Assembly: GCF_000337095.1 (NCBI RefSeq)
Contig: NZ_AOIV01000043.1
Span: 43,477 to 76,947, forward strand
Length of the DNA: 33,471 nucleotides
Origin: Halogeometricum pallidum JCM 14848
GTDB taxonomy: Archaea; Halobacteriota; Halobacteria; Halobacteriales; Haloferacaceae
Direction of reading: 5' to 3'
The notes beneath the pieces were generated by a model that worked only from the letters and a program-made list of their open reading frames with translations, did not search any database and was not told where the DNA came from. Shown piece after piece: positions 11,136 to 12,545 of this stretch. Each line of letters opens with the position of its first letter. The stretch's first letter is position 1. The translations under genes and the position numbers were made by a program.

Positions 11136-11150
11136 TCGTCCGCCTCGTCG

Positions 11151-12140
11151 TCACCGCAGCGAGGACGTGAGTCGCCCGAGGAACGACCGGTCGTCGCTGA
11201 GGTTCTCCGACACCTCGTACTCCCGTTCGATGTTCCCCTCGTCCGTCACGGTCACGATGCGAACGTCGGCTTGTTCGGCTCGGTTCACCACCTGCTCGTC
11301 GACGATGCCGAGCGTCGGGACGAGAAGCGCCTGCGCGGACAGTTCTTCGGCCGTGGCTTCGAGGCTGTCGACGTCGTTGACGGTCGGTTGCTCGTGGACG
11401 GCGGCGATGGCTCCCTTCCCCAGCAGTTCGTCCGTCGCGTGGACGTGGAGGCGGTGTCGAGTTCCGGAGTCGGCGGTGACGGTGGCGTCCTGCTCTACGA
11501 CGTACCCGCGGTCGGCGAGGGCGTCGGCAATGGTCCGTCTCGCTCGGAGTTGCGTTTCGAGCCACGGTTCGCCGCTCTCACCGAGACGGTACTGAAACAG
11601 CGCGTGTTCGATTGCGTCGTGCGGGTCGCAGGCGAAGCCACCGGCCCGGTGCCCCGCGCGGTTCTCACACCGGAGCGCGTGGGCGGGAGTCTCGTGCTGT
11701 TCACCGCAGTCGTGACACCGATACCGGCTCGTCCGTTCGAGTTGGTCTATCGACTCCGCCGTCGAACCGCAGCCGTGACAGACGACTTCGCCGCCGTCGC
11801 TCTCGAACTCCTCCGGCGGTGCGGTCCGGCCGCATCCGCCGCATTTGAGCAGTTCGGTGTCGACAATGTATAACGACTGGCACTTCGGGCAGGCGGTCGT
11901 GTACGTCATCCGCCCCTCGAGGCACTCCGGGCAGGTGTACACTTTCCCCTCGAACGTCCGTTCGAGTATGCCTCGCTCGGTCAGCGATTCGAGCGCTTCC
12001 TTCGATTGTCCGCCCTCGTCGATGAGCGTCTCCTCGACGGCGGGATAGGTGACCACCCCGTCGTCGATCGTCGGCTGATAGGAGTCTCTGGACCCCTCGA
12101 CGAGTTCGGTCACGAGACGTAGTTTCCCGGGAGAGACCAC
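11151..12140 (-). CDS. Winged-helix-like / multi-zinc-ribbon protein with nuclease-fold-like C terminus (TackOD1-like)
   Basis: 329 aa from GTG at 12140. Three regions can be seen. Residues 1-65 look like a winged helix (an EALESLTERGILER helix-turn ending in a wing). Residues 66-172 hold CxxC pairs at 70/73, 84/87, 100/103, 121/124 and 142/145 plus Cys158 and Cys171, implying two or three zinc sites. This resembles the TackOD1 (thaumarchaeal output) metal-binding type I know from haloarchaeal annotation. Residues 195-300 (RARRTIADALADRGYVV..., TADSGTRHRLHVHA..., GADVRIV-like end) resemble a restriction-endonuclease-like fold, but the usual D...ExK residues are not obvious, so it may bind rather than cut. 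The frame stays open to 12281; 12140 was chosen because the family-like sequence begins there and a TATA-like element lies 33 nt upstream. Function is unknown; a DNA-associated regulator is a guess. Confidence 0.65.
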   Translation of the reverse strand: MVSPGKLRLVTELVEGSRDSYQPTIDDGVVTYPAVEETLIDEGGQSKEALESLTERGILERTFEGKVYTCPECLEGRMTYTTACPKCQSLYIVDTELLKCGGCGRTAPPEEFESDGGEVVCHGCGSTAESIDQLERTSRYRCHDCGEQHETPAHALRCENRAGHRAGGFACDPHDAIEHALFQYRLGESGEPWLETQLRARRTIADALADRGYVVEQDATVTADSGTRHRLHVHATDELLGKGAIAAVHEQPTVNDVDSLEATAEELSAQALLVPTLGIVDEQVVNRAEQADVRIVTVTDEGNIEREYEVSENLSDDRSFLGRLTSSLR

Positions 12141-12168
12141 GGTCAGACCCCCTCCGCCGCCCCGACTC

Positions 12169-12177
12169 TTTTCAAAA
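12169..12177 (-). promoter_or_regulatory. Possible TATA box of the zinc-ribbon/nuclease-like gene
   Basis: The minus strand reads ttttgaaaa, centred 33 nt before the GTG at 12140. If used, the longer frame reaching 12281 would not be translated in full. The element is AT-rich in a GC-rich genome but not a perfect match. Confidence 0.35.
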
Positions 12178-12545
12178 TTCCGACGGATTGAATTTGTATT
12201 GCCTGACTCATGAACGATCCTCTCCAGAGACAATACCTCCAAAATATCATAACCATTGTTGCCACTCGTCCGCACAGTCACTCGTCCGTCTGTTTCTCGT
12301 TTCCCAGTCCCTCATTCGAATCGAGAGGTTCATTCGTCGCTACGGCGCGCCACCCGTGATTCGCGTGACACAGACGAGAGAGTGGCAGGCGAGGGGCATC
12401 GATTCGCGCGAGCGCCGACGAACGAAAACGAGATGCCGCCGAACGGGCCGGAGCGTTGGCGTTCGCCTCGAAACCGCGACTTTCTTTTCACGGGTGATTT
12501 CCGGATAGTTACCCGGCGCAACCGTCGCGGGGCGCACAAATCAAC

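Follow-up and report, generated by a model that had tools for sequence, protein, structure and literature searches.

A probable standalone regulator of the TackOD1 family in haloarchaea, with predicted zinc ribbons inside a winged helix and a predicted pseudo-nuclease domain

The TackOD1 family (thaumarchaeal output domain 1; PF18551, arCOG06883) takes its definition from response regulators of archaea, and standalone, REC-TackOD1 and REC-wHTH-TackOD1 architectures have been described (PMC5847659). In that account, the domain is given a pattern of five CxxC plus an HxxC and its function is called "obscure". Genes of arCOG06883 are mostly located in thaumarchaeal pilus loci (PMC4858521). In the literature that we found naming TackOD1, PF18551 or arCOG06883, no function is assigned to the domain and no tested function of any TackOD1 protein is reported. 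Here we analysed a stretch of 33,471 nucleotides from Halogeometricum pallidum JCM 14848 (the window; contig NZ_AOIV01000043.1, positions 43,477 to 76,947 of the forward strand), which encodes a 329-aa protein matching PF18551 with 73.9 bits (E 1.6e-20, residues 27-160; curated cut-off 32 bits). The model is matched by all 28 sequences of our main alignment, that is, the window protein and 27 homologues, so that TackOD1, named as a lead in an earlier note on this DNA, is borne out. The window protein shares with TackOD1 proteins the Pfam match and, in its homologues, the published Cys pattern; moreover, a wHTH adjoins TackOD1 in some of the proteins described in PMC5847659. It differs from them in having no REC (receiver) domain in the Pfam search, an additional C-terminal pseudo-nuclease, a CxxC in place of the HxxC and a shifted twelfth Cys. 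The missing REC domain does not bar membership, because standalone TackOD1 proteins are among the architectures given in PMC5847659.

11151-12140, minus strand: whole gene, 329 aa (open reading frame; start conserved across 28 homologues)

The gene extends from a GTG start at 12140 to a stop codon at 11151-11153, as the earlier note had placed it. The open frame continues upstream as far as 12281, and this longer frame was rejected as the gene: homologues start with M[VAG]SPG exactly at the position of 12140. The conservation of these first residues in the alignment identifies 12140 as the true start.

The N-terminal half of the protein was modelled with AlphaFold (AF2), both within the full protein (mean pLDDT 85) and as residues 1-192 (mean pLDDT 90), and the three helices and two-stranded wing of a winged helix are present in both models.

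11934-12140, minus strand: winged helix, first part, residues 1-69, with helices 4-15, 33-38 and 46-55 and wing strand 59-69 (AF2 models; MarR/DsrD/Fur-type matches)
11613-11933, minus strand: zinc-ribbon insert in the wing, residues 70-176, part of TackOD1 (PF18551 match; models)
11880-11933, minus strand: predicted zinc ribbon 1, C70, C73, C84 and C87 (invariant in the alignment)
11769-11843, minus strand: predicted zinc ribbon 2, C100 (for which most homologues have His), C103, C121 and C124 (alignment)
11634-11717, minus strand: predicted zinc ribbon 3, C142, C145, C158 and C169, the fourth ligand shifted by a genus-specific 6-aa insert (alignment, congeners)
11577-11612, minus strand: second wing strand, residues 177-188, completing the winged helix (span of structure matches)

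With the N-terminal model, VIA-align matches extend from residue 1 as far as residues 187-192, yet only about 62-75 residues are aligned, which places the zinc module inside the fold; the predicted winged helix thus consists of residues 1-69 together with residues 177-188. The matched structures are DsrD (Z 8.4) and proteins of the MarR, HxlR and Fur types, with Fur also matched by the full model. These Z scores (6-8.4) are modest and within the range for common folds, and it is the recurrence of the same type of match, not any single strong match, that supports a winged helix in the models. MarR, Fur and HxlR regulators and DsrD have the winged-helix core in common with the window protein over the 62-75 aligned residues, whereas they lack the insert of about 107 residues that separates its two wing strands. 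In the homologues, the TackOD1 Pfam match stops close to where the second wing strand ends, consistent with the winged helix and the zinc insert forming one unit; such an insertion in the wing is absent from the description of TackOD1 in the available text of PMC5847659. The insert holds 12 Cys as three predicted four-Cys ribbons, with five CxxC pairs (C70/73, C84/87, C100/103, C121/124 and C142/145) plus C158 and C169. Ten of the 12 Cys are invariant among the 28 sequences; the partner of C158 is displaced by the 6-aa insert, which is conserved within the genus. Both sequence and models contain four-ligand Cys/His clusters on beta hairpins, the zinc itself being predicted. Whole-protein and profile sequence searches of the PDB returned zinc-finger noise alone. 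Thus, the putative DNA-binding N terminus, the twelve Cys with five CxxC pairs and the multiple zinc ribbons proposed in the earlier note all agree with these results; its arrangement of three parts side by side does not, for the models place the ribbons within the winged helix.

The C-terminal part, for which a nuclease-like fold had been suggested, indeed resembles PD-(D/E)XK nucleases of the Mrr type.

11205-11576, minus strand: PD-(D/E)XK (Mrr-like) pseudo-nuclease domain, residues 189-312 (VIA-align; profile comparison)
11445-11447, minus strand: His232 codon, at the catalytic Asp position (His in 28 of 28; wider set 51 His, 5 Asp)
11388-11402, minus strand: residues 247-251 (AVHEQ), ExK region (register inferred from hairpin geometry)

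In VIA-align comparisons of the model, residues ~190-308 match AF1548 with Z 12.1 (104 residues, rmsd 2.7 A) and the fold matches EndoMS with Z 10.9; further matches include Can2/Card1, XisH, RPB5 and Hjc. In one homologue the Mrr_cat match attains the gathering score (21.0 bits, E 3.7e-4). When profiles were compared, the value for haloarchaeal Mrr_cat domains was 4.6e-5, or 3.5e-6 with a wider set; a C-terminal profile search of the PDB gave no useful match. The predicted structure therewith points firmly to a PD-(D/E)XK (Mrr-type) nuclease fold. The window family shares this fold and the signature "lvTTsG...a..A..gv.vL" with Mrr-type domains (PF04471; AF1548, EndoMS, Hjc), but it has His where the catalytic Asp would be, does not conserve ExK and is fused to the zinc-winged winged helix. 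Residue 232 is His in all 28 aligned sequences, and among the 56 rows of a wider homologue set with a residue at this position there are 51 His and five Asp, two of the five being one locus represented twice. The Asp rows are divergent, partly broken second copies (paralogues), and their retention of Asp indicates that Asp232 was lost along a lineage descending from an ancestor of nuclease type. Tandem or second gene copies are found at loci L038, L039, L041, L045 and L049; some are broken and several carry Asp at 232. In the HMM-HMM alignment to Mrr the Asp is pinned to His232, while the ExK register is uncertain, and no register shows a conserved ExK among the 56 rows. Residues 247 and 249 (Ala and His) are favoured as the ExK positions in the model, because residue 232 should lie opposite 247 in the hairpin made by strands 228-237 and 242-249, and because 247 (A/S/D/E) is acidic in ten of the 56 rows. 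The eroded active site described earlier is therefore real as to the Asp-to-His change, while the assignment of Gln (251) as an ExK residue depends on the register. A further haloarchaeal protein family, whose Mrr-like domain seems inactive and precedes apparent membrane segments, was noticed at loci L197-L203 (L202 being G000:C41 251500-254500), and it is also present in the genome of the window.

Lacking the catalytic Asp and the (D/E)xK, the window protein does not have the residues of an active nuclease. A noncanonical one could be imagined, in which His232, nearby acidic residues and His249 form an alternative metal site cutting DNA or RNA: His232 is invariant in the main family, residue 249 is His in 49 of the 56 rows, and residue 250 is acidic in 50. 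However, the canonical Asp and Lys are both missing, residue 249 is Ala in the Halalkalicoccus-type branch and residue 247 is variable even though ten rows are acidic there; to our knowledge, a His232/His249-type site is without precedent among nucleases of this fold, and cutting activity seems highly unlikely. The jaw domain of RPB5 is itself a non-cutting PD-(D/E)XK fold. The window protein might be a factor of RNA polymerase or basal transcription, with ribbons and a winged helix as in TFE/TFS and a pseudo-nuclease that docks like the jaw. RPB5 N-terminal domains match the C-terminal part with Z 7-8.4, human TFIIE matches the winged helix with Z 6.3, and there are a weak RNA_pol_Rpb5_N Pfam hint (E 0.06) and weak matches to the zinc parts of TFS4 and TFIIH Ssl1. 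All these matches are weak or reflect shared folds, and several nucleases score above them. With the RPB5 N-terminal domain (Z up to 8.4), which belongs to a transcription protein and is a non-catalytic PD-(D/E)XK fold, the likeness stays at the level of the fold; RPB5 has neither zinc nor winged helix and is not patchy in distribution, in contrast to the window family, which has a clear match in just 3 of the 148 genomes of the taxonomic family of the host. Such a scattered occurrence is at odds with a basal factor. We consider such a polymerase factor improbable.

Full-length relatives, mostly 30-44% identical, are present in Halobacteriales, and the family is sporadically distributed, as a standalone gene in about one fifth of the sampled genomes of this order. 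Protein matches of some kind, including short zinc-ribbon matches, were found in 49 of 195 sampled genomes, the Pfam cut-off is passed in 40, and the C-terminal profile is matched in 37 of 190 genomes, two of them weakly. A control set of genomes yielded no TackOD1 match. Named carriers are Halococcus, Haladaptatus, Halalkalicoccus, Natronococcus, Saliphagus and Halomicrococcus, with some copies on plasmids. A search of contigs with a single sequence as query found no loci; with the alignment as query it found 26. The three matching genomes of the window's own taxonomic family belong to one genus and include that of the window, whose clade forms a long branch within the haloarchaeal family in the tree. 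Among congeners, the gene lies beside purE in three of five genomes and is absent from two, where about 45 bp connect purE to the nuo leader.

11136-12492, no strand: segment missing from two congeners (congener comparison)

This interval, from purE to the nuo leader, is a clean single-gene presence/absence among congeners, and the gene is dispensable at the genus level. Its rarity in the taxonomic family of the host tentatively favours gain over loss; the third-position GC of the gene (0.81, versus 0.88-0.93 in its neighbours) and the presence/absence pattern are compatible with gain from outside. With dN/dS of about 0.35 against two congeners, and 0.21-0.23 in the zinc part, the gene is maintained by purifying selection and not decaying. 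Its neighbours vary from genus to genus, and clustering of conserved neighbours found no partner common to many genera, so that the position between purE and nuo is uninformative; the earlier note was right to locate the gene next to nuo, but the location carries no meaning. TATA-like sequences are found directly upstream of many homologues. Together with the absence of conserved partners, they make the gene look monocistronic, a single gene that apparently acts in trans. One full-length relative (L050 8561-9682) is surrounded by glycosyltransferase and sugar-nucleotide genes, identified by their sequence starts alone; a function drawn from this polysaccharide-like cluster was rejected, one relative being too few.

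The patchy presence, the plasmid copies and the single-gene presence/absence within the genus could also be read as signs of a defence protein or its remnant, either a nucleic-acid sensor or a decayed restriction effector, and the Mrr-like fold has relatives among restriction nucleases and the ancillary nucleases of CRISPR systems (Can2, Card1). However, the window protein has no match in PADLOC (two homologues have weak ones) and no relevant match in PHROG, no defence neighbours were noticed in the surveyed loci, and the gene has no partners. Moreover, the gene is intact at about 330 aa in many genera, and its dN/dS speaks against decay, so that the earlier suggestion of a remnant of a defence-type effector finds no support. 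A defence role of either kind is very improbable, and neither a defence remnant nor an active nuclease is supported.

TackOD1-type zinc modules were also found in other contexts. Short modules at L089 1459-1770 (in the window's own genome, G000:C23), L081 1414-2976, L154 614-1966 and L152 51-620 have neither the winged helix nor the nuclease part, and they adjoin or are fused to glycosyltransferase-2 and DUF2334/polysaccharide-deacetylase genes, which suggests a second branch of the TackOD1 family in surface-polysaccharide loci. At L153 1545-2933 (G425), a REC-TackOD1 protein is encoded in the same phylum as the window genome. Its frame extends into the start of a glycosyltransferase-2, and the intervening part resembles the first half of the nuclease-like fold; this continuity may be a fusion or a frameshift.

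We conclude that the window protein is probably a TackOD1-family transcription factor, a DNA-binding regulator of the standalone kind. This reading is based on the TackOD1 match in all 28 sequences, the domain being defined as a response-regulator output domain in PMC5847659, and we infer that output here means DNA binding. It is supported by the REC-TackOD1 protein in the same phylum, the zinc module inside the winged helix, the nuclease fold with its lost Asp232, the purifying selection and the monocistronic look of the gene. Binding to RNA or to proteins is also known for winged helices and zinc ribbons. An RNA-binding factor in translation or RNA processing, with ribbons and winged helix on RNA, is nevertheless quite unlikely, given the family tie to response-regulator output domains and winged-helix matches mostly to the DNA-binding MarR, Fur and HxlR types. 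The "DNA- or RNA-binding sensor" of the earlier note is compatible with our results, DNA binding being the likely part. No operator or target site was found for the window protein, which counts against a DNA-binding regulator, as do the modest winged-helix Z scores and the dispensability of the gene within the genus.

For a DNA-binding regulator, the winged helix would read a DNA site and the zinc module would stiffen or extend the wing, providing extra DNA contacts, protein contacts, or metal or redox sensing. The pseudo-nuclease could bind DNA without cutting it, bind a ligand or mediate dimerisation; in the haloarchaeal branch it may be the input or dimerisation part, taking the place that the receiver domain has in related response regulators. 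Most likely, then, the window protein is a standalone relative of the TackOD1 response regulators whose pseudo-nuclease is used for DNA or ligand binding or for dimerisation. That His232 and His249, at the catalytic Asp and Lys positions, bind a metal, nucleotide or redox ligand and so switch the zinc-winged winged helix on and off is a more speculative and rather unlikely extension. As far as we have searched, the combination of ribbons in the wing with a pseudo-nuclease is undescribed in the literature.

TackOD1 has been a named yet unexplained "output domain" since 2018. A split-fold winged helix with zinc ribbons in its wing would predict DNA binding for the family, thaumarchaeal response regulators included, and the named Halococcus, Haladaptatus and Natronococcus species that carry the gene make this prediction testable. 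Furthermore, the sister copies that retain the catalytic Asp would allow one to trace how a nuclease became a regulatory module.
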